Part shown: piece by piece, positions 4,427 through 51,241 of the stretch | Numbering within the stretch: position 1 is the first letter of the stretch | Layout: every line of letters begins with the position of its first letter | Origin: Candidatus Methylobacter titanis | GTDB lineage: Bacteria; Pseudomonadota; Gammaproteobacteria; Methylococcales; Methylomonadaceae | Length of the DNA: 53,641 nt | Reading direction: 5' to 3' | NCBI GenBank assembly: GCA_029946125.1 | Contig: JAQSDX010000022.1 | Span: 1-53,641, forward strand | Translations under genes and position numbers: made by a program | The notes under the pieces: model-generated | The model's database searches: none | Told to the model about the DNA's origin: nothing | The model's input: only the letters and a program-made list of their open reading frames with translations

Positions 4427-4448
4427 TGTAATCTCCTCTAAATCATTA

Positions 4449-6002
4449 TCAGGCGGCGGTAGCTTTTGCATTTATCCCGAAATCTTCCGGGAAATGATTT
4501 AAAGCGCTCAGTACAGGGTAGGGCGTCATACCGCCTAATGCACAGAGGGAGCCGTTGAGTAAGGTGTCGCAAAGATCACGTAACAAGGGGATGTTTTTAT
4601 CGAGGTTGCGACCGTTAATAATGTCGTCCATGACTTCTACGCCACGTGTGGAACCGATGCGGCAAGGCGTACATTTGCCGCAGGATTCGATTTTGCAAAA
4701 TTCCATGCTATAGCGTGCCATTTCGGCCATATTGACGGTGTCATCAAAAACGACTATACCGCCGTGCCCCACTACCGCCCAGATGGCGGCAAAGGCTTCG
4801 TAATCCAATACAGTGTCAAATTGCGCTTCGGGCAGATAAGCGCCGAGCGGGCCGCCGACCTGAACTGCCTTAATCGGCCTGCCGGAAGCTGAGCCGCCGC
4901 CGAAATCGTACAGTAATTCGCGCAGGGTTAAGCCGAAGCTGAGTTCGACTAAACCGGGGCGCTTGATGTTACCTGCCAGTTGCACCGGTAAAGTGCCGCG
5001 CGAGCGTCCTATGCCAAAATCACGGTAATAGTCGCCGCCTTTATCCAGAATAATCGGCACCGAAGCCAGGGAAATAACGTTGTTAACGACAGTGGGTTGT
5101 CCAAACAAACCGCTGATGGCTGGCAAAGGCGGTTTAAACCGTACCAGGCCGCGTTTGCCCTCAAGGCTTTCCATTAATGACGTTTCTTCGCCGCAGACAT
5201 AAGCGCCTGCGCCCAGTCTGACTTCCAGGTCAAACCTTTTGTCGCTGCCTTGAATATTGTCGCCCAGATAGCCTTCTTTGTAAGCGGTGGCAATGGCGGC
5301 ATTGAGCACTTCGCAAGCGTGAGGGTATTCTATGCGCAGGTAGATATATCCTTGGGTGGCATCGACGGCTAACCCGGCAATGGTCATGCCTTCGATTAAC
5401 ACGAACGGGTCGTCTTCCATGACCATACGGTCGGAAAAGGTGCCGGAATCGCCTTCATCGGCATTGCAGATAATATATTTTTGCGCTGATGCGGTGTTGA
5501 GTACCGTCTTCCATTTTATGCCGGTTGGAAACGCTGCGCCGCCGCGACCGCGTAAACCCGAATCGGTTACCGCCTGGACAATTTGTTCCTGGCTCATGGC
5601 TAGCGCATTTTTCAAGCCGCGATAGCCGTCATTTTCAACATAATCGGTCAAGCTGAGAGGATCTGTTTTGCCGATACGGGCAAAGGTCAGGCGTTGCTGT
5701 TTCTTGAAGTAATCCAGCTCTTCAGTCAGGCCTAAACCTAGGGCGTGCGCGCCGCCTTGGGTAAAGTCGGCATCGAACAAGCCGGACACGTCGCCGGGCT
5801 GAACAGGGCCGTAGGCCACGCGTCCTTTAGCGGTTGCCACTTCAACCAGCGGTTCCAGCCAGAACATGCCTCTTGAACCGTTACGAACCAGTTTAATGTC
5901 GAGACCGCGCGTTGCCGCTTCTTTAGCAATAGCGGTGGCAACGCGATCAGCACCCAATGAAACGGCGCTGGAATCGCATGGCACATAAATAGTGATACTC
6001 AT
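4449..6002 (-). CDS. fdsB: NAD-dependent formate dehydrogenase beta subunit FdsB
   Basis: FdsB is the diaphorase subunit, homologous to NuoF. It binds FMN and NAD and hands electrons from FdsA to NAD+. The N-terminal 100 or so residues form the thioredoxin-like extension that resembles NuoE. The NuoF core follows, with [13 protein letters not shown] and [13 protein letters not shown] (FMN and NAD binding), and [16 protein letters not shown] holds the [4Fe-4S] cysteines. The 517-residue length is normal. Its start overlaps the fdsG stop by 4 bases (ATGA), so the two are probably translationally coupled. Confidence 0.96.
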
Positions 6003-6475
6003 GCTGATGCCTCTGTAGTAGTGATGGTTGCATCAAAGCTGTCCGCTGTCACGCGCCCGTAAATTTCCTTGCCGATTTGCATGGCCGGTGAACAGGCGCA
6101 ATTGCCTAAACAGTACACGGGTTCCAGAGAGAATTTGCCGTCTGGGGTAGTTTCATGAAAACCAATGCCTAGTTTGCTTTTAACATGCTCTTCAAGTTGT
6201 TTTGCGCCCATCGCTTGACAGGATTCTGCCCGGCACAGATGAATAGTTTGTTTGCCCGGCGGCGTGTCTCTGAAATAGTGGTAAAAGCTGATCACGCCGT
6301 GTACTTCGGCGCGAGAAAGGCTTAGCCCTGCGGCGATATCCGGTACGCAGTCGGCCGGGATATAACCCAGTGTATCTTGTATGCCATGCAGAATAGGTAA
6401 AAGTGCGCCGGGCTTGTCTTTAAATGTGGCGATTATTTCTTGCACGGTGGGTTGCGTGGTGCCTGATTCTGTCAT
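5999..6475 (-). CDS. fdsG: NAD-dependent formate dehydrogenase gamma subunit FdsG
   Basis: FdsG is a NuoE-like [2Fe-2S] protein that forms the diaphorase unit with FdsB. The cluster ligands are visible as CRAESC and, about 40 residues later, CLGNCAC. The N-terminal helical bundle includes [17 protein letters not shown], as in the family. I chose the ATG at 6475 because a GAG ribosome site lies 6 bases upstream. An ATG two codons earlier (6481) is possible. It is the first gene of the fdsGBA-fdhD-fdsD operon. Upstream are a candidate promoter and an inverted repeat that could be an operator. Confidence 0.94.
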
Positions 6476-6513
6476 GATCATCTCAAAATAGGGTGAATCC
6501 GTCCGGATTAAAA

Positions 6514-6567
6514 CAACAGTTATTCCTGACTGTTGCGTATTTAAATGTGTCTGCTAGCATAGCACAA
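6514..6567 (-). promoter_or_regulatory. Candidate fds promoter with overlapping inverted repeat
   Basis: Reading the minus strand there is a -35-like TTGTGC (6562-6567), a 17-base spacer and a -10-like TTAAAT (6539-6544). Just downstream of the -10, around the expected start point, lies the inverted repeat CAACAGT-N8-ACTGTTG (6514-6535). Its position would suit an operator controlling fdsG. The -35 is weak, so the promoter part is tentative. The 310 bases between fdsG and the lipoprotein gene hold nothing else that I can name. Confidence 0.4.
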
Positions 6568-6743
6568 GATATTTTGGCTGTAAAAATGCTATGAAATGGA
6601 CAAAAAATGTAGGTGTTTAGCGCTATCGGTTATGTGTTTATTTATAATGAATATTTTTAAATAGGGTGCTTTAAAATCATTTGTCTGTTTTTGGGTAATA
6701 GACTGTTTGTTTATTGGCCTATATTCAATGGTATTTTTTTGCT

Positions 6744-6775
6744 AAAAATCAGTAAGAGTGACCGAAGCCACTCTT
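6744..6775 (-). terminator. Rho-independent terminator after the lipoprotein gene
   Basis: On the minus strand, 15 bases past the lipoprotein stop codon, AAGAGTG (RNA sense) pairs with CACTCTT across an 8-base loop (6754-6775). A run of five T follows a few bases later. The stem is short, so strength is uncertain. It would separate the lipoprotein transcript from the fds operon promoter. Confidence 0.5.
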
Positions 6776-6789
6776 TGATAATTGCTTTT

Positions 6790-7188
6790 TTATTTCACAA
6801 AACAATTTTTTTCGGCATATTGTTCTGCGTCTTTAAGCCGTTTTCTTAAGTCTTTGGATTGAGTCGGATCGCGCATAGCCGCAGCGGCATCGCCGGTCTG
6901 ACCTTTGCTTAAATAAGAGAAGGTTTTCGCGGCTTCGTATTCAGCAAAACTCAGTTTTTCAGCGATTTTGTCGATTTTACAACCGCAGGCATATTGGCTG
7001 ATATAGGTCAGGCCGCCGTGTTGTGCAACGCAATTTAAAACATATTCAACGCGGTCTCGGGTAGGGTAGTCGCTGACAAATGGCACAGGTTCAGCAGATT
7101 CTGTCGGTTTTTCCGGCGCGGTGGCACAACCTGAAATAACGGTGACTAACGTAAGGCTTAATATGAAAGGTGTGTGTTTAATTTTCAT
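6790..7188 (-). CDS. Small cysteine-containing lipoprotein, function unknown
   Basis: The 132-residue product begins with a lipoprotein signal peptide (a hydrophobic run ending VISGC, Cys21), so it should be lipid-anchored. A Pro/Glu-rich tether follows. The mature domain carries four more cysteines (NCV, ACGC, and NC near the C-terminus) and many Lys/Glu residues. The spaced cysteines suggest disulfides or metal binding, but I cannot assign a family. It is transcribed toward the fds operon and seems to have its own terminator. It lies between the formate dehydrogenase genes and mobA, but a functional link is not shown. Confidence 0.6.
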   Translation of the reverse strand: MKIKHTPFILSLTLVTVISGCATAPEKPTESAEPVPFVSDYPTRDRVEYVLNCVAQHGGLTYISQYACGCKIDKIAEKLSFAEYEAAKTFSYLSKGQTGDAAAAMRDPTQSKDLRKRLKDAEQYAEKNCFVK

Positions 7189-7243
7189 GGATGATTTTTT
7201 ATTCCCATAAGTCAGAAAGTGAAAAATAAGTCAGTAATCAAAA

Positions 7244-7282
7244 GCGATAATCGCGGCTAAAGCCGCTCCCACCCTTTATCGC
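7244..7282. repeat. REP-like nested hairpin
   Basis: GCGATAA (7244-7250) pairs with TTATCGC (7276-7282) and encloses a second hairpin GCGGCT-AA-AGCCGC (7253-7266) followed by CCCACC. The core resembles REP elements known from many gammaproteobacteria. It lies between the divergent lipoprotein gene and mobA. Confidence 0.65.
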
Positions 7283-7296
7283 GCAACGGGCAAATA

Positions 7297-7318
7297 ACTT
7301 GTGTAGATAGCTATGCCT
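7297..7318 (+). repeat. Dispersed 22-bp repeat, copy 1
   Basis: This 22-base stretch matches 13278-13299 with two differences (ACTTGT, TAGA and AGCTATGCCT are shared). Both copies sit in intergenic DNA upstream of a plus-strand gene, here about 90 bases before mobA, and both follow a hairpin. They may be the end of a repeat unit or a shared regulatory site. Confidence 0.45.
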
Positions 7319-7407
7319 ATAGGGGTTAACTTATGCGCTGCTTGCATTAAGTAACAAGCTTGCGCGAACAGTCTACCCACAACCCAACCTATTCAAAGCT
7401 TACCATT

Positions 7408-8007
7408 ATGAGCAATCAAACAAAAGTAGCCGGCGTGATTCTTGCCGGTGGTCGTGCCCGGCGCATGAATAATCAGGATAAAGGTCTGATGAAGTTTAAA
7501 GGTCGTCCTATGGTGAGTTATGCGCTAGCCGCGTTAGCTCCCGTTGTCAATTATGTGTTCATCAATGCCAATCGGAATATCGATCAATACCGGCAATTTG
7601 GATGTCCGGTTATTAGCGATCAAACCGACAGTTTTGACGGTCCTTTGGCTGGCGTATTAACGGCTATGATTCATGCTGATGCCGATATTCTGGTGGTCTT
7701 GCCTTGCGACTCGCCGTTAATTAAAACGGAACATCTGCAAAAGTTGTTATCAACCCGCGCCGAGAATAATGCCGATGTTGCGGTCGCCTTTGATGGGGCA
7801 AGGATACACCCGGTTTTTTTTGCGGTAAAAACTGCATTACAAGGCAGTCTGCAAGATTATTTGGCTGGCGACCAACGTAAAGTGGCGGCTTGGCTGGCGC
7901 AGCAGAACTTTGTGAAGGTCGATTTTAGTCGGGAGCCGGAAATATTCAGCAACATTAATACCCTGGCCGAGTTATCGGCGCTGGAGGACATTAATTATCC
8001 CAGTTAG
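7408..8007 (+). CDS. mobA: Molybdenum cofactor guanylyltransferase MobA
   Basis: MobA joins GMP to molybdopterin to make the guanine dinucleotide cofactor (bis-MGD) used by DMSO-reductase-family enzymes, including the FdsA encoded nearby. The nucleotidyltransferase motif LAGGRARRMNNQDKGLM is at about residues 10-26, and LPCDSPL is the metal-binding region. The frame is open back to a TTG at 7360, but the ATG at 7408 gives the standard MobA N-terminus and about 199 residues. The neighbourhood with fdhD and fdsA supports a shared role in formate dehydrogenase maturation. Confidence 0.93.
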   Translation: MSNQTKVAGVILAGGRARRMNNQDKGLMKFKGRPMVSYALAALAPVVNYVFINANRNIDQYRQFGCPVISDQTDSFDGPLAGVLTAMIHADADILVVLPCDSPLIKTEHLQKLLSTRAENNADVAVAFDGARIHPVFFAVKTALQGSLQDYLAGDQRKVAAWLAQQNFVKVDFSREPEIFSNINTLAELSALEDINYPS

Positions 8008-41752: not shown

Positions 41753-43357
41753 ATGTCTGCTGTCGTAGCTGAACATGATCACCACGATCACGGCCCTGCT
41801 AAGGGGCTGTTAAGATGGATTATTACCACTAATCATAAAGATATCGGCACATTATATTTGCTGTTTGCATTGGCGATGTTTTTTGTTGGCGGTGCCATGG
41901 CTATGGTTATTCGTGCTGAATTATTTGAACCGGGCTTGCAATTTGTGGACCCTGCGTTTTTTAATTCGATGACTACCATGCACGCCTTGGTTATGGTATT
42001 TGGCGCAGTGATGCCGGCATTCGTCGGCTTAGCCAACTGGATGATTCCAATGATGATCGGCGCTCCGGATATGGCGTTGCCGCGTATGAATAATATGAGT
42101 TTCTGGTTGCTGGTCGCCGGTGTTTTATTGCTGGCCAGCACCTTATTGATGGAAGGTGGCGCGCCTGCTAGTGGCTGGACTTTGTATCCGCCATTAGTAT
42201 TACAAACCGGTAAAGCATTGCCTTTCGCGATTTTCTCGGTGCATTTACTGGGTATTTCGTCAATCATGGGTGCCATTAATATCATTGCAACTATTTTCAA
42301 CATGCGCGCCCCTGCCATGACCTTAATGAAAATGCCGATGTTTGTTTGGACCTGGTTGATTACTGCGTTCTTGTTAATCGCTATCATGCCGGTTTTTGCC
42401 GGCGCAGTGACCATGCTGTTAACAGACAAATTTTTCCAAACCAGCTTTTTTGATGCGGCGGGTGGTGGTGATCCGGTTCTTTATCAACATATATTTTGGT
42501 TCTTTGGTCATCCCGAAGTTTATGTGATGATTCTGCCGACTTTCGGCGTAGCGTCTACCATTATTCCTGTCTTTGCGCGTAAGCCTTTGTTTGGCTACAG
42601 CTCAATGGTTTATGCGACAGCTGCAATTGCATTTTTATCATTTATCGTTTGGGCTCACCATATGTTTACCGTGGGCATGCCGATAGCAGGTGAGTTGTAC
42701 TTTATGTATGCAACCATGTTAATTGCAATTCCAACCGGAGTTAAAGTCTTTAACTGGACTGCGACCATGTGGAAAGGTTCGATGACTTTCGAAACACCTA
42801 TGCTGTTTAGTATTGCCTTCGTCGTTTTGTTTACGATGGGTGGATTCACCGGCTTGATGATGGCTATTGCGCCTGTTGATTTCCAGTACCACGATACTTA
42901 TTTTATTGTCGCGCATTTCCATTACACACTGGTTCCCGCTTCGATCTTTATATTGATGGCGGCCGGTTATTTTTGGCTGCCTAAATGGACCGGTCACATG
43001 TACAACGAAAAAATTGGTCAACTGCATTTTTGGTTGTCTGCAATTTCGGTGAATATCCTGTTCTTCCCTCAGCATTTCTTAGGCTTAGCAGGCATGCCAC
43101 GCAGGATACCCGATTATGCTATTCAATTTGCTGATTGGAATATGATTTCCAGTATTGGTGGTTTTATATTCGGTGCCAGTCAACTGTTATTCTTGTATAT
43201 CGTCGTTGATACTATCAGAGGCGGAACTGGTGAGAAAGTAACAGCTGAAGTCTGGGAAGATGCATCTAAGCATAGCTTGGAGTGGACTTTATCGTCGCCA
43301 CCACCGTATCATTCATTTACTACACCACCAACCTCTATACCTACTGAACATATCTAG
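41753..43357 (+). CDS. coxA: Cytochrome c oxidase subunit I
   Basis: Subunit I holds heme a and the heme a3-CuB site and pumps protons. Twelve helices are predicted. Key residues are the heme a His in TTMHALVMVFG, GHPEVYVMILP with the D-channel Glu and CuB His, HHMFTVGMP (CuB His pair) and YFIVAHFHYTL (heme a3 and heme a His). The XGHPEV motif points to the A1 type. The length of 534 residues is normal. It lies 54 bases after coxB. Confidence 0.97.
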   Translation: MSAVVAEHDHHDHGPAKGLLRWIITTNHKDIGTLYLLFALAMFFVGGAMAMVIRAELFEPGLQFVDPAFFNSMTTMHALVMVFGAVMPAFVGLANWMIPMMIGAPDMALPRMNNMSFWLLVAGVLLLASTLLMEGGAPASGWTLYPPLVLQTGKALPFAIFSVHLLGISSIMGAINIIATIFNMRAPAMTLMKMPMFVWTWLITAFLLIAIMPVFAGAVTMLLTDKFFQTSFFDAAGGGDPVLYQHIFWFFGHPEVYVMILPTFGVASTIIPVFARKPLFGYSSMVYATAAIAFLSFIVWAHHMFTVGMPIAGELYFMYATMLIAIPTGVKVFNWTATMWKGSMTFETPMLFSIAFVVLFTMGGFTGLMMAIAPVDFQYHDTYFIVAHFHYTLVPASIFILMAAGYFWLPKWTGHMYNEKIGQLHFWLSAISVNILFFPQHFLGLAGMPRRIPDYAIQFADWNMISSIGGFIFGASQLLFLYIVVDTIRGGTGEKVTAEVWEDASKHSLEWTLSSPPPYHSFTTPPTSIPTEHI

Positions 43358-43415
43358 GGTGTTGCAATTCAGGTTGCTTGTAAAAGCAACCTGCTTAGAT
43401 TACGTATCAGGTGAA

Positions 43416-43517
43416 ATGATGACTACTAAAAAGAAAAATATTCTGACGGCATTGGTTTTGGTGACGATTGCAGTCATTATTTATGTTTTTGCGGTGATAA
43501 GAGCGCTTTCTCAATGA
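43416..43517 (+). CDS. Small single-helix cytochrome oxidase assembly protein
   Basis: A 33-residue product with a Lys-rich start and one transmembrane helix (LTALVLVTIAVIIYVFAVI). GGTGA just before the ATG acts as ribosome site, and its stop overlaps the ctaG start by 4 bases. Tiny proteins of this pattern are common between coxA and ctaG and are annotated as oxidase small assembly proteins. Function is inferred from position. Confidence 0.75.
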   Translation: MMTTKKKNILTALVLVTIAVIIYVFAVIRALSQ

Positions 43518-44065
43518 GTAAAGATGTTGCTAATAAAAATATTAAGTTAGCAAGAACTTTACTGTTAGTTGCTGTGGCCATGTTTGGTTTTGGTTATGCA
43601 CTGGTTCCACTTTACGATGTTTTGTGTGAATGGAAATGGATAGAACGGGACAGGCCCGATGATATTAAAAAAGTTCCAGAGGTTGCTTACCAAATCGATA
43701 GGAACAGGGAAGTTACAGTAGAATTCATGACTACATTAAATGAATCTACGCCTATGAAATTTCGTGCAGAAAAAAAACAGCTAAAAGTTCATCCGGGCGA
43801 ATATTATACCGTTAATTTTTATGCTGAAAATAAAACTGATAATGCCATGGTCGCCAGAGCGATTCCCAGTTTTTCGCCTGCAGTAATCAGTAGCTATTTT
43901 GAAAAAATTGAGTGTTTTTGTTTTTCAGAACAAACGTTCAAAGCAAAAGAAGCGAAAATTATGCCGATGCGATTTGTGATTAATCCAGCGCTACCTGAGC
44001 AATACAAAACTATTACACTGTCATACACATTCTTTGATAATACTGAAAAATCAGTAAAAAAATAA
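43514..44065 (+). CDS. ctaG: Cytochrome c oxidase copper chaperone CtaG (Cox11)
   Basis: CtaG/Cox11 delivers copper to the CuB site of subunit I. It has one N-terminal helix (TLLLVAVAMFGFGYALVPLYD, followed by a conserved Cys in VLCEW) and a periplasmic domain with the copper-binding CFCF motif (IECFCFSEQ) and the MPMRFVINPALP block. The length of 183 residues is normal. It is coupled to the small upstream protein by ATGA. Confidence 0.95.
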   Translation: MSKDVANKNIKLARTLLLVAVAMFGFGYALVPLYDVLCEWKWIERDRPDDIKKVPEVAYQIDRNREVTVEFMTTLNESTPMKFRAEKKQLKVHPGEYYTVNFYAENKTDNAMVARAIPSFSPAVISSYFEKIECFCFSEQTFKAKEAKIMPMRFVINPALPEQYKTITLSYTFFDNTEKSVKK

Positions 44066-44077
44066 TAGGGGAAAATT

Positions 44078-44941
44078 ATGTCTACAAGTGACACTTATTA
44101 CATTCCGCATAAAGCTACGTGGCCAATCATTGGTACAGTCGGATTGGTGATTATGCTGGCTGGATTTGCAAATTATTTAAATGGTTCCTCAATCGGTCCA
44201 ACCATGATGGTGCTAGGACTGCTTGTATTTATTGTCATGTTAACCGGGTGGTTCACATTGCAGTCAGGGGAAAGTGAATCAGGCATGTACAGCACACAGG
44301 TAGGTATTTCCTATCGTATGGGCATGATGTGGTTTATCTTTTCAGAAATTATGTTTTTTGCTGTTTTTTTCGGCACACTTTGGTATACGCGTAATTTATC
44401 GGTGCCATGGTTGGGTGGCGAAGGTACTCGAGCTGTGACTAAGGAACTATTGTGGCCTGCTTTTGAAGCTGCCTGGCCTACTAATGGTCCCGGTAAAGTC
44501 GGGGGCGAATTTGAATCGATGGGGGCTTGGGGTTTGCCTTTTCTGAATACCTTAATTCTGCTAACCAGCGGCGTATCTTGTACCTGGGCGCATCATGGCT
44601 TGCTGGCAAAAAACCGTGATCAGTTAATTAAAGGTTTGATTGCCACTGTAGGATTGGGGCTGTTGTTCGTCACTTTTCAGGCAATCGAGTATCATGAAGC
44701 TTATACCGAAATGGGATTAACTTTAGGGTCGGGTATTTACGGATCTACTTTTTTCATGTTGACCGGCTTTCACGGTTTTCATGTTTGTGTCGGTGCTATT
44801 ATTCTGGGCGTTGTTTTATTTCGTAGTTGGAAAGGTCATTTTCAACCGGAAAATCACTTTGCTTTTGAAGCCGCAGCTTGGTATTGGCATTTTGTTGACG
44901 TGGTATGGTTAGGCTTGTTTGTATTTGTTTATGTAATTTAA
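44078..44941 (+). CDS. coxC: Cytochrome c oxidase subunit III
   Basis: Subunit III is a seven-helix protein that stabilises the oxidase and its proton uptake. MWFIFSEIMFFAVFFGTLWYTR, the FQAIEYHEAY loop and GFHGFHVCVG with WYWHFVDVVWLGLF at the C-terminus are classical. The length of 287 residues is normal. It follows ctaG by 12 bases and ends at a strong terminator. Confidence 0.96.
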   Translation: MSTSDTYYIPHKATWPIIGTVGLVIMLAGFANYLNGSSIGPTMMVLGLLVFIVMLTGWFTLQSGESESGMYSTQVGISYRMGMMWFIFSEIMFFAVFFGTLWYTRNLSVPWLGGEGTRAVTKELLWPAFEAAWPTNGPGKVGGEFESMGAWGLPFLNTLILLTSGVSCTWAHHGLLAKNRDQLIKGLIATVGLGLLFVTFQAIEYHEAYTEMGLTLGSGIYGSTFFMLTGFHGFHVCVGAIILGVVLFRSWKGHFQPENHFAFEAAAWYWHFVDVVWLGLFVFVYVI

Positions 44942-44960
44942 GTTAAACAGCCATACCCAT

Positions 44961-44995
44961 AAAAGCGCTGTCTTACAGACAGCGCTTTTTTTTTG
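44961..44995 (+). terminator. Strong terminator after coxC
   Basis: AAAAGCGCTGTC pairs with GACAGCGCTTTT around a 5-base loop, followed by more T's. Read the other way it could also serve the convergent DUF2909 gene. Confidence 0.92.
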
Positions 44996-45014
44996 TCGGA
45001 ATGGTTGATGATTT

Positions 45015-45263
45015 TTATTTAATAGCGGTATTCGGTGTTTGCTGCATTCGAGCACCCAGTCCGTGAGGTGTGATCATGCCGGTTGCCAAGGCTATAAAAA
45101 TAAAAATGAATAAGACAATTGAAAGGGTAATGCGAAAAGTCAGGGCTTTGACTGTTTTTTCGGATTGTTCCGGAGTCCTGTGTTTAACCAGATGAAATAG
45201 CGCTGAGCCTAAGCTGATAATTATCAGGATAAAGGCGATAATAACGATACTTTTTATAATCAT
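45015..45263 (-). CDS. DUF2909 twin transmembrane protein
   Basis: An 82-residue protein with two helices (IVIIAFILIIISLGSALFHLV and LSIVLFIFIFIALATGMI) joined by a short charged loop containing LVKHR, the DUF2909 pattern. The family sits at this spot in many cox loci, on the opposite strand between coxC and SURF1. Its job in oxidase assembly is unproven. It is convergent with coxC. Confidence 0.83.
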   Translation of the reverse strand: MIIKSIVIIAFILIIISLGSALFHLVKHRTPEQSEKTVKALTFRITLSIVLFIFIFIALATGMITPHGLGARMQQTPNTAIK

Positions 45264-45342
45264 GAGTGCAGTTAAGTGGGTGGTTAAAGTTTTTGTATTC
45301 TCGGTTATTTAGGTGCTTGTGCCAATAGGTAAAGAAAAATGC

Positions 45343-46086
45343 ATGATTTCTCGGATAGACTCAATGAAGTTTAAAATTATTCCAACGTTAGTTTATTTGT
45401 GCCTATTGCCGGTGTTGCTCGCGTTGGGACTGTGGCAATTAGACCGTTCAGAACAGAAGCGGGCGTTGCTTAATTTGCAAGAACAAGCGGTGGCAACTGA
45501 AACATTGCATTTGTCTGAGGTTATGGAAAACAGTACAGAGACACTGAGATACAAGCAGGTCGAGGTTACAGGGCGATACGATATGGCGCACCAGTTTTTG
45601 ATAGATAATCAAATCAGTGGCGGCAAGGCGGGCTATTTTGTATTGACACCATTGATATTGACCGGTGAAACCAAGGCTGTTTTGGTAAACAGGGGTTGGA
45701 TTCCTTTAAATTCGGATCGATCTATTCTTCCTGACTTGCAGATTAACCAGGTGCAAGCAACTATTACTGGACGGATTAATGACTTCCCCAGTGTTGGTAT
45801 AAAATTAGCCGGAGCGGAAATTCCAACCTCAAGTTGGCCATCGGTAGTGCAGGTGGTCGATAGTCAGGTATTGGCTAAAAAATTAGGCTATTCATTATTT
45901 CAATTCCAGGTTGAGCTTGCTAAAGAATTACCCGATGGGTTTAAACGGGAATGGCATACAACAACCATTATGTTGCCCGAACAACATACGGCCTATGCAA
46001 TTCAGTGGTTTGCATTGGCATTAACACTAACGATATTATTTATTTGGTACGGTTTTAAAAACAACGATGCAAAATCAGAAGGCTAA
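45343..46086 (+). CDS. SURF1-family heme a insertion factor
   Basis: SURF1 helps place heme a in subunit I. It has an N-terminal helix (IPTLVYLCLLPVLLALGLWQLDRSEQKR pattern), the periplasmic domain with YKQVEVTGRYD, VLVNRGWIP and a C-terminal helix (HTAYAIQWFALALTLTILFIWYG). The start is uncertain: GTG 45313, ATG 45343 and ATG 45364 are in frame. I use 45343. The stop overlaps the next gene by 20 bases. Confidence 0.9.
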   Translation: MISRIDSMKFKIIPTLVYLCLLPVLLALGLWQLDRSEQKRALLNLQEQAVATETLHLSEVMENSTETLRYKQVEVTGRYDMAHQFLIDNQISGGKAGYFVLTPLILTGETKAVLVNRGWIPLNSDRSILPDLQINQVQATITGRINDFPSVGIKLAGAEIPTSSWPSVVQVVDSQVLAKKLGYSLFQFQVELAKELPDGFKREWHTTTIMLPEQHTAYAIQWFALALTLTILFIWYGFKNNDAKSEG

Positions 46087-46663
46087 AAATCATCTATTAA
46101 TAATAGTTCTATTTGGGATGACGGTCATTCCATTCTTGATCGCGTGGGGATTAAAAGAACATCCGCAACTATTAAATGGGCAAACCAATCATGGGCAGTT
46201 AATCACGCCGCCACAAACAACCGAACGCGGCGATTTAACCGGTTTTGATCAGTTTTCAATCGACAATATAGCAGAGCTTAACGGACACTGGTTGCTGGTC
46301 AATGTCATCCCCAACGGTGATTGTAATGAGGTGTGTCTTGAATCCATTCATAAAACCAAACAGTTAAGGCTGATGTTAAATAAGGAATTGACCCGTACGC
46401 GTCGAATGGTCATCGTCCTAAAAGAGGTTACGCCGGAAGTTGCGAGCCAATGGTGGAAAAATGACCCGACCTTATTACGAGTCAAAGCCAATGATGCAGT
46501 TACCCAGAAAATTACTGCAATCAGGCAAGGTAATATTCCTGATGGGATGCTGCTGTTAATGGATCCATTGGGTAATTTGATGATGCAGTATGAGCCGGGT
46601 TTTGATCCTTACAACGTAAAAAGTGATCTTATGCATCTTTTGCGAATTTCACAAATTGGATAG
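46067..46663 (+). CDS. Sco-like thioredoxin-fold membrane protein in the cox locus
   Basis: The 198-residue protein has one N-terminal helix (HLLIIVLFGMTVIPFLIAWG) and a periplasmic domain with GHWLLVNV, a CxxxC motif (DCNEVCLESIHKTKQLR) and a C-terminal DPLGNLMMQYEPGFDP block. This is the layout of Sco/SenC copper chaperones, though I do not see the distal copper His, so copper binding is uncertain. Homologues are common between SURF1 and heme A synthase genes. Its stop touches the start region of the next gene. Confidence 0.72.
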   Translation: MQNQKAKNHLLIIVLFGMTVIPFLIAWGLKEHPQLLNGQTNHGQLITPPQTTERGDLTGFDQFSIDNIAELNGHWLLVNVIPNGDCNEVCLESIHKTKQLRLMLNKELTRTRRMVIVLKEVTPEVASQWWKNDPTLLRVKANDAVTQKITAIRQGNIPDGMLLLMDPLGNLMMQYEPGFDPYNVKSDLMHLLRISQIG

Positions 46664-46674
46664 TGGAAAATAAC

Positions 46675-48657
46675 ATGTTTAGAAAAATAACTCTCTTTAG
46701 CATTGTTTTAGCTTTAATAGTTATCGTAGCGGGTTCATACGTTCGCTTATCCGGGGCAGGGTTAGGCTGCCCAGATTGGCCGGGATGTTATGGGCAAGCC
46801 GTTGTCAGCTATCATACCGATTTTATAGCACAGGCGGCTAAGGCTTTCCCGGTACAGACTCCTGATATAGCAAAAGCCTGGAAAGAAATGGGACATCGTT
46901 ATCTGGCCGCTATCTTAGGCATGGCTGTGTTGTTGCTGGCGATGCTTTCGTGGCGCGTACCACAAGCTCGCGGGGCGGTTATCTCAGCGATATTAGGTCT
47001 GATAATTTTAGTCGGATTACAGGCGGCTTTAGGCATGTGGGCCGTAAAATTGTACGCTATGCCAATTGTTGTCACCGGTCATTTATTGCTCGGCATGATG
47101 ACTTTCTGGCTATTGTTCTGGCTGTATTTACGGGTTAATCCAAAGATTTCACCATTAACTGTGCGTAGCAAGGGTTTGCTTGCATTTACCCGATTTGCAA
47201 TGGGAGTGTTATTTGTAGAAATTGTTTTGGGCGCTTGGGTTAGTACTAATTATGCCGCTTTAGCCTGTTCGGGTTTCCCAGCGTGCAATGGTTCTTGGTG
47301 GCCTAAAGCCGATTATCAAACGGCGCTGAATTTATTTAGCGGCTTAAGCACAGGTTATACCGGCGTCATCGCATTTGATGCGCAGGTTGCCGCAAATTGG
47401 TTGCATAGGGTTGGTGCGCTGGTTAGTTTTATTGTGCTCACTCTGGTGATGTTGACCGCAACATCTGCTCATCATTCAACACCGATCAGAAGAGCGGGTT
47501 TATGGCTGAGTGTGTTACTGTTGTTACAGATCGGTTCAGGCATTGTCGGCATTAAACTCGGTGCGCCTTTATGGGCGGGGTTGGCTCATAATGCGTTTAC
47601 CGCATTGTTGATGTTGCCGTTGATCGCTATCAGTTTTTATAGTCGATATGTTTATGTTGAAGAGCTAAAGCCTGCCGTAGAAGTTGAGCCGCAAGTTGTT
47701 TTGGTCGCAGAAGAAGCTTATTTTGAGCCGGAACCCGAATCACTATACTTACGGCTGAAATCACAGTTAACGCGAACCCGTTCCGGACTTAGCGGGGTAT
47801 TGGCTCATATTCCTTTAGGTCGACAAGAAATTGATGAGGATTTGCTGGAAGACATTGAAGCCAGTTTGTTAATGGCCGATATAGGCGTGGATGCGACTAC
47901 TGAAATCATCAAACGCTTGACTGAGCGTGTTGAACGGCATCAGCTCAATGATGGTGCGGCTTTATCAGCGGCCTTAAAGCAGGAACTGCTGAGCATGCTG
48001 CAACCGTGCAGCCAAAAGCTGCATATTCCCAAACAGGACAAACCTTTCGTTATTCTGGTCGTCGGTGTTAATGGCGCGGGTAAAACCACAACAATCGGTA
48101 AATTGGCTAAGCGTTTACAGGCGCAAGGCCATAGCGTGATGTTAGCCGCCGGAGATACCTTTAGAGCGGCGGCTGTCGAGCAATTGCAAACCTGGGGGGA
48201 GCGTAATAACATTCATGTGGTAGCTCAGCATACCGGGGCTGATTCGGCATCGGTCATTTATGATGGCGTACAATCCGCACAGGCAAAAGGCATTGATGTG
48301 TTGATTGCCGATACCGCCGGACGCTTGCATACCAAATCCAATCTGATGGATGAATTGAAAAAAATTAAACGTATTATCGGTAAGCTGGATGAAACCGCGC
48401 CTCATGAAGTGCTGCTGGTATTGGATGCCGGTACCGGGCAAAATGCCTTATCGCAAACCAAACTGTTTAATGAGACGGTTGCCTTGACCGGCCTGGTTCT
48501 GACCAAGCTCGATGGCACCGCAAAAGGCGGTATTATTTTCGCATTAGCCAAACAGTTCAATATCCCTATCCGTTTTATAGGAATAGGCGAAGGTATTGAT
48601 GATCTGCAGGATTTTGATGCAGATGCTTTTGTCAATGCATTGTTTGTTAAAGACTAA
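46675..48657 (+). CDS. Heme A synthase (Cox15/CtaA) fused to SRP receptor FtsY
   Basis: One uninterrupted frame encodes two normally separate proteins. Residues about 1-325 are a complete heme A synthase with eight helices and its His ligands (GHRYLAAILGM, VTGHLLLGMM, NWLHRVGALV, LAHNAFTALL), which oxidises heme O to heme A. Residues about 326-355 are an acidic Glu/Pro/Val linker like the start of FtsY. About 360-660 are the FtsY N and G domains with GVNGAGKTTTIGKLAKR, DTFRAAAVEQL, DTAGRLHTKSNLMDEL and TKLDGTAKGG. No in-frame ATG or GTG with a ribosome site lies at the junction, so FtsY would be made only as the fusion. ATG 46675 is used. A GTG at 46663 is possible. ftsE follows after 7 bases. 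Confidence 0.88.
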   Translation: MFRKITLFSIVLALIVIVAGSYVRLSGAGLGCPDWPGCYGQAVVSYHTDFIAQAAKAFPVQTPDIAKAWKEMGHRYLAAILGMAVLLLAMLSWRVPQARGAVISAILGLIILVGLQAALGMWAVKLYAMPIVVTGHLLLGMMTFWLLFWLYLRVNPKISPLTVRSKGLLAFTRFAMGVLFVEIVLGAWVSTNYAALACSGFPACNGSWWPKADYQTALNLFSGLSTGYTGVIAFDAQVAANWLHRVGALVSFIVLTLVMLTATSAHHSTPIRRAGLWLSVLLLLQIGSGIVGIKLGAPLWAGLAHNAFTALLMLPLIAISFYSRYVYVEELKPAVEVEPQVVLVAEEAYFEPEPESLYLRLKSQLTRTRSGLSGVLAHIPLGRQEIDEDLLEDIEASLLMADIGVDATTEIIKRLTERVERHQLNDGAALSAALKQELLSMLQPCSQKLHIPKQDKPFVILVVGVNGAGKTTTIGKLAKRLQAQGHSVMLAAGDTFRAAAVEQLQTWGERNNIHVVAQHTGADSASVIYDGVQSAQAKGIDVLIADTAGRLHTKSNLMDELKKIKRIIGKLDETAPHEVLLVLDAGTGQNALSQTKLFNETVALTGLVLTKLDGTAKGGIIFALAKQFNIPIRFIGIGEGIDDLQDFDADAFVNALFVKD

Positions 48658-48664
48658 AAAATCT

Positions 48665-49321
48665 ATGTTACAGTTCGATAATGTCAGTATGAGGTACCCC
48701 GGAGCAGGCGATGTCTTGCGTAATGTCAGTTTTCATCTGGAGCGTGGTGAAATGGCTTTTCTGACAGGGCATTCAGGGGCCGGAAAAAGTACATTATTGA
48801 AATTGATTGCGCTGATCGAGCGCAGCAGTCGGGGGCAGGTTTTATTGGATGATCAAAATCTCAACCAAGCTAAGGATAGACATATTCCTTTCATACGCAG
48901 GAAAGTGGGTTTGATCTTTCAGGATTATAAGTTGTTACAGGACAGAACCGTTTTTGATAATGTGGCCTTGCCATTAATCATAGCGGGTTACGGACACCAC
49001 GAAGTTTCCCGGCGGGTACGAGCAGCATTGGACAAAGTCGGCCTATTAGGCAAAGAGAAAAAATATCCTGCTGTGTTATCCGGTGGAGAGCAGCAGCGGG
49101 TCGGGATTGCCCGGGCGGTGGTTAACAAGCCGCCGATGATTTTGGCCGATGAGCCAACCGGGAATCTTGATCCGGAGCTGTCCGCTGAAATCATGCATTT
49201 ATTCGAGCAATTTCAACAGGTTGGGAGTACGGTGTTGATTGCCTCGCATGATGTTTTATTGATCGCCCAAATGAATTATCGTGTGTTAAAACTGGATCAC
49301 GGACAACTGGTTGAAAGTTAA
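48665..49321 (+). CDS. ftsE: Cell division ATP-binding protein FtsE
   Basis: FtsE is the ABC ATPase that with FtsX controls peptidoglycan hydrolases at the septum. Walker [14 protein letters not shown]-loop FQDYKLL, signature [14 protein letters not shown] and Walker [13 protein letters not shown] are intact. The ATG at 48665 gives [13 protein letters not shown] and 218 residues, the normal FtsE. The longer open frame upstream overlaps FtsY and is not used. It lies between FtsY and FtsX, the standard order. Confidence 0.97.
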
Positions 49322-49324
49322 ACT

Positions 49325-50317
49325 ATGAGGCACGTTACTAAAAAGCCAATTAAACAGGAACGTTGGCAGACTAAAATTTCCGGCGGTAATTTTGTCGATA
49401 AATTGTATGCTTACCGGAACCTTCATGCGCATGCGTTGTTTTCAAGTCTTGGGCGCTTAGTCGCGTCACGGTTCTCTTCAGCAATGACCATCGTTGTCTT
49501 GGCGATCGCCATCTCACTTGCCAGTGGATTTTATATCCTGGTGGCGAACCTCCAGCAGTTGGCAGGCAATTTGGAAGCCAGCAATCAAATCTCATTATTT
49601 ATTAAAGATGAGATTTCAGAAGTTCGAGCCAATAAATTTGCCGATAGTATCAGGAAAAATCCCGACATTCAGGCAGTAAAATTAATTACCAAGGAGCAGG
49701 CGTTAGCCGAATTTCAGTTATACAGCGGATTTGGTGACGCAGTAAAAGCCTTGGAAAAAAATCCGCTACCGGTAGTCATTCAGGTGTTGCCCAAAAATTC
49801 ATTGGAAAATGAACAGGCGCTTGCGGTTTTGCTTGATGATTTTGAGCGGGCCGCAGAAGTTGATTTTGCCCAGATGGATATGCAATGGGTAAAGCGCGTA
49901 CAATCCATAATGGAAGTGGCACGGCGTGGCGTTATCTTATTAAGCTTGTTGCTGGGGACTGGAGTGCTGTTTATTACCGCTAACACCATACGCCTGGAGT
50001 TATATAAACGTCGTGATGAGGTCGTGATCGCTAAGTTAGTGGGAGCGACCAATGGTTTCATTCATAGGCCATTTCTGTATAGCGGTTTTTGGATAGGCTT
50101 TTTTTCCGGTGTGACGGCATGGTTTATTGTTACAACGATCATGCTGATTTTAAAACGGCCTGTCGAAACGCTTTCCAGGCTTTATGACGATGGCTTTCAT
50201 ATAGTGTTTTTGGGCTTTACCGAAACATTGGCATTGCTACTTATTTCATCGGTGCTGGGTGTGGTGGGTTCATGGATAGTGCTTCATTTTCAACTTCGGC
50301 AATTAAAACCCGAGTAG
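49325..50317 (+). CDS. ftsX: Cell division protein FtsX
   Basis: FtsX is the membrane partner of FtsE. It has a basic cytoplasmic N-terminus of about 50 residues, TM1 (MTIVVLAIAISLASGFYIL), a periplasmic domain of about 120 residues (NLEASNQISLFIKDEIS) and three C-terminal helices with the LVGATNGFIHRPFLYSGFW motif. The length of 330 residues is normal. It starts 3 bases after ftsE. Confidence 0.95.
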   Translation: MRHVTKKPIKQERWQTKISGGNFVDKLYAYRNLHAHALFSSLGRLVASRFSSAMTIVVLAIAISLASGFYILVANLQQLAGNLEASNQISLFIKDEISEVRANKFADSIRKNPDIQAVKLITKEQALAEFQLYSGFGDAVKALEKNPLPVVIQVLPKNSLENEQALAVLLDDFERAAEVDFAQMDMQWVKRVQSIMEVARRGVILLSLLLGTGVLFITANTIRLELYKRRDEVVIAKLVGATNGFIHRPFLYSGFWIGFFSGVTAWFIVTTIMLILKRPVETLSRLYDDGFHIVFLGFTETLALLLISSVLGVVGSWIVLHFQLRQLKPE

Positions 50318-50324
50318 GAAATTA

Positions 50325-50351
50325 TTAGCACTCAATGATTAAGAGTGCTAG
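50325..50351. promoter_or_regulatory. CIRCE operator (HrcA site) upstream of rpoH
   Basis: TTAGCACTC, nine bases, then GAGTGCTAG matches the CIRCE consensus TTAGCACTC-N9-GAGTGCTAA at 17 of 18 positions with exact spacing. It lies 32 bases before the rpoH ATG. CIRCE is the binding site of the heat-shock repressor HrcA. Confidence 0.88.
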
Positions 50352-50383
50352 AATTCGAAAAAGTTTTTTATCTGGAGATCTCA

Positions 50384-51241
50384 ATGAGTAACGCATTAGC
50401 ATTACCTGTTAATTTATCGGTAGGAACGTTTGATGCCTACTTAAATGTCGTCAGGCAAATGCCTAAATTGACAGTAGAACAAGAACGCGAATTAGCCTTA
50501 AAATTTAGAGATGACGGCGATTTGGAAGCCGCACGTCAATTGGTTATGACCAATTTGCGCTTTGTGATTCACGTTGCTCGAGGCTACAGTGGATATGGCT
50601 TGTCTATGCCGGATATTATTCAAGAAGGCAATATCGGCTTGATGAAAGCGGTTAAGCGCTTTGATCCTGATGTTGGTGTGCGTTTGGTTTCATTCGCCGT
50701 ACACTGGATTAAAGCCGAGATTCATGAATATGTGATCAAAAACTGGGGTATTGTAAAAGTTGCCACCACCAAAGCGCAACGTAAACTGTTTTTTAACTTG
50801 CGTAAATCCAAGCAGGATATAGGCTGGTTATCCAATGACGAAGCGGTGGCGATCGCCAAAGATCTTGATGTCGATGTCAGTATCGTTTACGAAATGGAAA
50901 AACGTCTAGGCAGCAGAGATATGTCATTTGACATGCCTGTCGATGAATCAGCCGAAGAAAGCTATGTGGCCCCAGCCAGCTATCTTCATCAGCATGGCAC
51001 TGATCCTGCGGTACTGCTAGAAAATTCAGATTGGGAAGGCCATGAGCAGGATTTATTGTCGGGAGCATTGTCCCAGTTGGACGAACGCAGTCTGGATATT
51101 CTGTCGAGCCGTTGGTTGACGGACAAAAAAGCGACCTTGCATGAACTTGCCGATCGTTACAATGTTTCAGCGGAAAGAATCAGGCAGTTAGAACAAAATG
51201 CGATGAAAAAAGTAAGAGCAGCCGTTGAACTAGCCGCTTGA
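50384..51241 (+). CDS. rpoH: RNA polymerase sigma factor RpoH (sigma-32)
   Basis: This is the heat-shock sigma factor. The RpoH box QRKLFFNLRKSK, diagnostic for sigma-32, follows region 2 (DIIQEGNIGLMKAVKRFDP and FAVHWIKAEIHEYVIKNW), and region 4 ends with LHELADRYNVSAERIRQLEQNAMKKVR. The ATG at 50384, with GGAG upstream, gives MSNALALPVN and 285 residues, as in other RpoH. The open frame runs back to 50345 but overlaps the CIRCE element. It has its own terminator and likely its own HrcA-controlled promoter. Confidence 0.97.
   Translation: MSNALALPVNLSVGTFDAYLNVVRQMPKLTVEQERELALKFRDDGDLEAARQLVMTNLRFVIHVARGYSGYGLSMPDIIQEGNIGLMKAVKRFDPDVGVRLVSFAVHWIKAEIHEYVIKNWGIVKVATTKAQRKLFFNLRKSKQDIGWLSNDEAVAIAKDLDVDVSIVYEMEKRLGSRDMSFDMPVDESAEESYVAPASYLHQHGTDPAVLLENSDWEGHEQDLLSGALSQLDERSLDILSSRWLTDKKATLHELADRYNVSAERIRQLEQNAMKKVRAAVELAA

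Follow-up and report, generated by a model that had tools for sequence, protein, structure and literature searches.

An old, inherited fusion of heme A synthase (Cox15/CtaA) to FtsY in the Methylococcales, in which the enzyme domain probably anchors the SRP receptor in the membrane

The stretch of DNA that we analyzed (the window; 53,641 nucleotides, contig JAQSDX010000022.1 of Candidatus Methylobacter titanis, from a draft assembly of 146 contigs) contains a cox operon, a gene that joins cox15 to ftsY, and the genes ftsE, ftsX and rpoH. The features considered here are as follows.

41753..46663, plus strand: upstream cox operon, encoding CtaD, Cox11, CoxIII, SURF1 and a PA0111-like protein (NCBIfam, Pfam)
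within 41753..46663, minus strand: twin-helix DUF2909 (NCBIfam, Pfam)
46675..48657, plus strand: cox15::ftsY fusion gene, 660 amino acids (domain profiles, model, relatives)
46675..47139, plus strand: Cox15 N-bundle, TM1-4, substrate/catalytic half (Pfam, alignment, model helices)
47158..47649, plus strand: Cox15 C-bundle, TM5-8, heme-b cofactor half (alignment, model)
47650..47742, plus strand: acidic low-confidence linker in place of the FtsY A domain (pLDDT <50 at residues 335-384)
47743..47802, plus strand: helix before the N domain (AlphaFold2 model helix 357-376)
47803..48654, plus strand: FtsY N and G domains, SRP receptor GTPase (TIGR00064; closest solved chains are FtsY)
48665..51241, plus strand: ftsE, ftsX and rpoH (TIGR02673, TIGR00439 and TIGR02392, all over their cut-offs)

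The fusion gene is a single uninterrupted frame on the plus strand, running from ATG 46675 to the TAA at 48655-48657, with Cox15/CtaA first and FtsY second. The same frame opens mechanically at GTG 46663, four codons before this ATG, and the protein begins with MFR at ATG 46675 in all 10 relatives aligned; residues are numbered from that ATG throughout. Pfam COX15-CtaA matches the protein with 216.6 bits (cut-off 29.9), Pfam SRP54_N (54.4 bits) and the SRP54 GTPase (259.6 bits) match the same protein, and the NCBIfam ftsY model TIGR00064 scores 373.3 bits (cut-off 260.7); NF045570, the alphaproteobacterial NCBIfam model of heme A synthase, gives 34 bits, below its cut-off of 550. The Cox15 motifs are kept (CPDWPGC, C32, C38, E71/H74/R75, H136, C198/C204, H244/R245 and H305), as are the SRP-type GTPase motifs and the N domain of the FtsY half, judged by the sequence, by columns invariant in 17 fused proteins and by Pfam. 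The hydrophilic N-terminal A domain of proteobacterial FtsY is absent, and the eight-helix Cox15 domain is found instead. An AlphaFold2 model (30 rows; mean pLDDT 80.8, pTM 0.56, with the placement of the halves relative to each other unreliable) has eight long helices in its first half, those of the N-bundle spanning residues 2-25, 65-94, 96-125 and 130-153, followed by a low-confidence region (335-384) that includes a helix at 357-376, and then by the NG fold. This helix, in which R360, L361, T368 and R369 are invariant in 17 fused proteins, presumably occupies the place of the FtsY membrane-targeting helix. The linker carries a median of 4 net acidic residues among 112 fused proteins (range -1 to 13). 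Foldseek matches the second half of the model to FtsY structures, and its best solved sequence relatives are FtsY as well; profile searches with the first half retrieved the solved proteins 8aw5 (named heme O oxygenase) and 6a2j (named heme A synthase). An earlier note on this DNA had described a complete eight-helix Cox15/CtaA domain running in frame into FtsY, with the key motifs of both halves retained, and this description stands: the open frame, the profiles and the model agree, and the Cox15 residues and GTPase motifs are all present.

On sequence evidence, the fusion is real, old and inherited. It is present in 21 of 23 genomes of the same genus at 77-100% identity, among them an assembly of 3 contigs (G021); in 3 of the 21 the long match begins at residue 77, with the Cox15 match found over the rest, and the two genomes lacking a fusion match are 80% and 72% complete. 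The Cox15 part was found in 207 of 237 family genomes at 1e-40, the listed open frames being mostly 630-700 amino acids long, and the FtsY part in 298 of 311 genomes of the order at 1e-70. We surveyed frame lengths in 80 order genomes, 78 of which had an FtsY match. FtsY lay within open frames of 634-675 amino acids in 25 of 26 matched genomes of family f1 (the exception, G165, has a frameshift) and of 656-878 amino acids in 41 of 43 matched genomes of f3-f7 (of the exceptions, G289 is truncated by the end of a contig and G291 is broken), whereas all seven f2 genomes had FtsY frames of 331-367 amino acids, separate from Cox15, and f8 had a frame of 350 amino acids in G309 and a contig-edge piece in G310. 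Family f1 includes Methylomonas koyamae and Ca. Methylobacter oryzae, and f4 includes Methylococcus sp. UBA6136. Fetched loci from all of f1 and f3-f7 confirmed Cox15 in the same frame as FtsY, except at L119 and L120, where Cox15 is too decayed; for nine f4 genomes with long FtsY frames, the frame length is the evidence. All 36 fused FtsYs sampled grouped in one clade (support 99/92) in an NG-domain tree of 42 rows, with f8, then f2, outside it. The earlier note had proposed looking for Cox15-FtsY fusions in other genomes, and had counted relatives with separate genes against a genuine fusion. Fusions occur throughout the genus and in f1 and f3-f7, where nearly all of the genomes surveyed have it, and separate genes are found in f2 and f8.

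The genomes surveyed were mostly drafts, and the 13 order genomes without an FtsY match at 1e-70 look like assembly gaps: three (G032, G071 and G248) hold contig-edge or partial pieces, and the other ten have only weaker matches, such as Ffh-, FlhF- or CtaA-like ones. One genome rated 100% complete (G043, in f1 and g9) has no ftsY, only Ffh- and FlhF-like matches and a separate CtaA; this is probably an assembly gap too. A search at 1e-8 of 20 genomes, the 13 unmatched and seven with short frames, found no intact separate FtsY; in six of those seven (G029, G053, G069, G073, G175 and G289) the gene runs off the end of a contig, and in G291 there is a break between the halves. Three draft genomes carry broken fusions: that of G040 (L134) is intact but for an in-frame TGA within the last Cox15 helix, that of G165 (L085) has a frameshift just before the N domain, and that of G291 (L337) is broken both between and within the halves.

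Beyond the order, 247 of 274 class genomes matched at 1e-75, and among the matches listed only three Methylococcales span both halves. The best 80 of at least 588 Cox15 loci included 76 unfused and 4 fused ones, the latter from Ca. Methylobacter oryzae, two Methylomonas and Methylococcus sp. UBA6136. Very long FtsY frames in G575 and G397 were rejected as GC-rich chance extensions, with long overlapping frames on both strands. In an Azonexaceae locus (L234, ORF from 2980) Cox15 lies in a 689-amino-acid open frame with no FtsY match, which reflects either another partner or a chance upstream extension. AMO-family matches of at least 380 bits were confined to the fused families; 8 of 10 f2 and f8 genomes hold weaker ones (up to 367.5 bits), and 16 of 70 fused-family genomes, all drafts of at least 60 contigs, have none, so that the link of pmoA to the fusion is loose. 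A search of the open-access literature found no paper on a Cox15-FtsY or CtaA-FtsY fusion.

The surrounding gene order is shared as well. In 23 annotated fused loci it reads coxI, cox11, coxIII, SURF1, PA0111-like, cox15::ftsY, ftsE, ftsX, as far as each stretch reaches and with single genes unrecognised in a few, and rpoH follows ftsX in some of those whose stretch extends; this order suggests that cox and fts genes may share a transcript. The PA0111-like redox protein that precedes the fusion in the window (46067-46663) scores 55.9 bits against a family cut-off of 230, and its position is conserved. Families f2 and f8, as well as two further proteobacterial contigs (L160 and L176), have cox genes near ftsY-ftsE-ftsX-rpoH in convergent orientation, tail to tail, an arrangement from which the junction could have arisen by inversion. 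We infer that in the ancestor of f1 and f3-f7 the ftsY-ftsE-ftsX-rpoH block was inverted beside the cox operon, which would have placed ftsY in frame behind cox15. In one f3 locus (L108, genome G255) rpoH (645-1559) is upstream of SURF1, on the strand opposite to 2374-7445, and not behind ftsX; the inversion breakpoints in f3 may therefore differ from those in the other fused families.

CtaA is described as carrying its apparent catalytic site in the N-terminal bundle and heme b, on two histidines, in the C-terminal bundle (PMC8239418, PMC7327177). To compare the two bundles we used 112 fused ORFs, a non-random set drawn from the genus, the best family matches and hand-picked odd cases; 121 distinct ORFs had been aligned, of which 4 unfused and 5 truncated or broken ones (L085, L133, L134, L136 and L154) were dropped. 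L023, L064 and L122 were kept, each starting at a contig or locus edge, and for that reason L122 lacks part of the N-bundle. The four N-bundle catalytic residues were all kept in 36 of 112 fused proteins versus 47 of 50 unfused controls (singly, E71 in 41, H74 in 79, R75 in 73 and H136 in 80), and two to four of them were changed in 57. Both heme-b histidines were kept in 108 of 112 versus 50 of 50 controls, and both cysteines of the second pair also in 108. The four proteins that lost a heme-b histidine (L071, L079, L119 and L130) indicate that the heme is not indispensable. On a FastTree tree we counted at least 25 losses for any N-bundle change and 3 for a heme-b histidine, numbers that hold for that tree and on the assumption that lost residues are never regained.

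The controls just cited are the second of two sets. The first comprised 76 unfused Cox15 proteins, all 76 intact, and is biased because it was picked by N-bundle peptide patterns. The second came from a Pfam profile search of other families in the class, with matches in 52 of 80 genomes, and consists of 50 loci from 57 Pfam match rows; the seven rows dropped were four partial ones (G462, G474), two tandem second copies and G350. One ORF was scored per locus, and at L286 and L287 this was the altered tandem second copy and not the main copy; since two of the three altered controls are tandem second copies, 47 of 50 is if anything low. L286, L287 and L325, all outside the order, combine an altered N-bundle with intact heme-b ligands, so degenerate CtaA occurs without fusion too.

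Sequence divergence follows the same division between the bundles. Mean pairwise identity of the N- and C-bundle was 0.316 and 0.427 in fused proteins, 0.417 and 0.377 in the Pfam-found controls, and 0.725 and 0.606 in second CtaA copies, an N/C ratio of 0.74 in the fused set versus 1.10-1.20 in the unfused sets. Among close pairs, which are not independent of one another and for which dS of the Cox15 parts was uncapped, N-bundle dN exceeded C-bundle dN in 104 of 107 with a changed N-bundle versus 70 of 138 with an intact one. In the intact lineages, the window's included, the two halves are conserved to much the same degree (median dN/dS 0.131 for the N half and 0.121 for the C half), so enzyme function may dominate there. 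The N-bundle is shortened in g26, and of three g25 genomes examined two have lost the Pfam Cox15 match. All 112 fused proteins have 5-9 hydrophobic segments before the linker when these are counted simply by hydropathy, with exactly eight in 97. Six were counted in g26 (L116-L118) and in L119, an even number, as a cytoplasmic FtsY would need, and this crude count gave odd numbers in 10 (seven in 8, five in 1 and nine in 1). In many relatives it thus looks as if the fused Cox15 half has lost its catalytic half and persists as a built-in anchor, and the changed copies have presumably lost enzyme activity.

A second heme A synthase accompanies most of these fusions. In the window's own genome three proteins match the FtsY profile, of which one, the fusion, exceeds the ftsY cut-off; from their scores and frame lengths we take the other two to be Ffh and FlhF. 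A second copy of either gene elsewhere in this genome had been named in the earlier note as worth a search: the profile search of the contigs found no second ftsY over the cut-off, and did find a separate CtaA on contig C93 (L236:1392-2417). Profile searches of 80 and 44 genomes gave a further CtaA match, partial in a few, in 107 of 112 tabulated genomes; the fused half is changed in 74 of these 107 and intact in 33, which means that 74 of 76 genomes with a changed fused half have a second match. The five without comprise three whose fused half is intact (G308, 94% complete; G187, 99%; G011, 89%) and two with a changed N-bundle (G019, 70%; G307, 85%), which are incomplete, so the second copy may simply be missing from their assemblies. 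G184-G186, which like G187 belong to g21, also lack a second CtaA match and have an intact fused half; the fifth g21 genome, G188 (65% complete), has no FtsY match and stands outside this copy test. All 34 second copies read, that on C93 included, keep the E, R and H as well as the heme-b pair, and all 34 have the motif TWT-E-(Y/F)-x-NR, with Asn for the usual first N-bundle His; the second cysteine pair is absent from the standalone second copies read. Taken together, these sequences look as if a paralogue had relieved the fused half of its task; the converse rests on two lineages.

These data bear on whether the fused half might instead work as a heme A synthase everywhere, with FtsY hitch-hiking and the residue changes tolerated. 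All catalytic residues are indeed present in this genome, as in 36 of the 112 fused proteins, and the fairly complete genomes G184-G187 and G308 have an intact fused copy and no second CtaA that we could find; we nevertheless consider such a bifunctional enzyme unlikely, given that two to four N-bundle residues are changed in 57 proteins, that the N-bundle is cut down in g26 and Cox15 escapes Pfam in two of three g25 genomes, and that it is the second CtaA that keeps E, R, H and the heme-b histidines in 34 of 34. Quite improbable, in our view, is that the gene yields two proteins, with an internal start, an internal promoter or proteolysis releasing FtsY and the fusion being a quirk of expression. 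A linker ATG is present in 20 of 112 fused genes and absent from 92, and a single gene combines it with a ribosome-site-like motif. When GTG and TTG are admitted, 29 of 112 have a start with such a motif, as the two-protein reading would have it, but at scattered places, and no conserved internal start in the linker was found among the 112. Between 46600 and 48000 we found 3 promoter-like sites versus 2.5 expected, which is chance level, although one of them, on the plus strand at 47614-47643, lies inside the fusion gene. The linker has low confidence in the AlphaFold2 model, and proteolysis could free FtsY from the predicted 72 kDa fusion protein; a 2008 study reportedly, by its title, concerns a cleavable membrane anchor of E. 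coli FtsY. Against release stands a frame that is open across six families, the exceptions seen being the three drafts G040, G165 and G291. An assembly join or a recent deletion, both left open in the earlier note, or a sequencing error at the junction has a negligible chance of explaining the locus: nothing beyond the draft state of the 146-contig assembly speaks for it, and it is ruled out by the relatives, since 21 of 23 genus genomes and six family-level groups, assemblies of 1-5 contigs included, share this junction and their fused FtsYs form one clade.

The Cox15 half, then, is probably a permanent, polytopic (eight-pass) membrane anchor of the SRP receptor; anchoring, topology and any role of the retained heme are what we infer from the sequences. 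The anchor would replace the soluble, reversibly binding A domain, and SRP-ribosome complexes would be received by an NG domain that never leaves the membrane. CtaA crosses the membrane an even number of times, which should place its C-terminus, and thereby FtsY, in the cytoplasm. With a second CtaA in most of these genomes, the fused half would no longer be needed for heme A synthesis, and its N-bundle would have decayed repeatedly, with the heme-b C-bundle mostly kept and a multi-pass hydrophobic region always kept. In the window organism every catalytic residue is kept, which makes a double function possible, and the fused half may still make heme A. The earlier note's suggestion of a permanent tether of FtsY, at the border of the cox and ftsE-ftsX-rpoH genes, gains support from the fusion being a genuine in-frame one. 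Its further suggestion, that protein targeting is coupled to oxidase assembly, may hold here, but fits the relatives poorly, in which the N-bundle is changed, FtsY is still fused and a second CtaA is usual.

FtsY held by a transmembrane domain is described as working in vivo (PMC2780400, citing Zelazny 1997), and the same paper describes E. coli FtsY as located mostly at the membrane; the fused receptor would be a naturally occurring example of such a tether. Indiscriminate targeting is reported for an FtsY that was engineered to adopt its stable membrane mode in advance (PMC5533587). A permanent tether may therefore be costly if the NG domain can no longer switch. Candidate reasons for retention of the heme-b bundle are anchor stability, a trimer core as in Aquifex CtaA, and heme or redox sensing. 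In the Aquifex enzyme, helices 5 and 6 of this bundle are described as the central trimer interface (PMC7327177). That interface, together with a heme-b bundle kept where catalysis seems gone, leads us to a more tentative reading, possible and no more probable than that: the decaying synthase could be a heme-b-binding, perhaps trimeric anchor that holds FtsY in a fixed cluster, with targeting gated or reported by heme or redox state.

If the anchor reading is true, a decaying heme A synthase is the membrane part of the SRP receptor in most families of a methanotroph-rich order. Arguments over whether the bacterial SRP receptor needs a soluble phase have drawn on engineered E. coli proteins; as far as sequences can tell, six family-level groups would have lived without such a phase since their common ancestor. 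The catalytic half of an enzyme appears to be lost here while the membrane scaffold and the fused partner are maintained, so that constraints on catalysis, cofactor binding and anchoring would be separable within one protein. Gene annotation by the name of one half alone would miss the other.

E. coli FtsY has a soluble acidic A domain. The fusion protein shares its NG GTPase, with 59% identity to crystal structure 6cqp when aligned by Foldseek, and differs in having an eight-pass Cox15 domain and a short linker where the A domain would be. FtsY proteins with an N-terminal transmembrane or strongly hydrophobic segment are described from Gram-positives, archaea and Streptomyces lividans (PMC2780400, PMC5533587); like them, the fusion would attach the SRP receptor by its own N-terminus, without a second subunit, but it is anchored by an entire polytopic enzyme fold that retains heme-b ligands. 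The eukaryotic SRP receptor alpha/beta is likewise described as holding its GTPase permanently at the membrane (PMC2780400), through a separate integral-membrane GTPase subunit and not a covalent heme-enzyme anchor. With CtaA/Cox15 (6a2j, 8aw5) the first half shares the family profile, eight helices in two bundles, the catalytic residues and the heme-b ligands, and it departs from them in carrying FtsY at its C-terminus and, in many relatives, a changed catalytic half. CtaA is already known fused, to CtaB, and with E57, H60 or H123 changed (PMC8239418, PMC9145763); the partner in those fusions is heme O synthase, and neither of these two papers mentions FtsY. Closest in design is the laboratory construct that places FtsY-NG on an unrelated membrane polypeptide (Zelazny 1997, via PMC2780400), also a permanent tether and reported to be functional, whereas the tether described here is natural and ancient, and its anchor is a heme enzyme.
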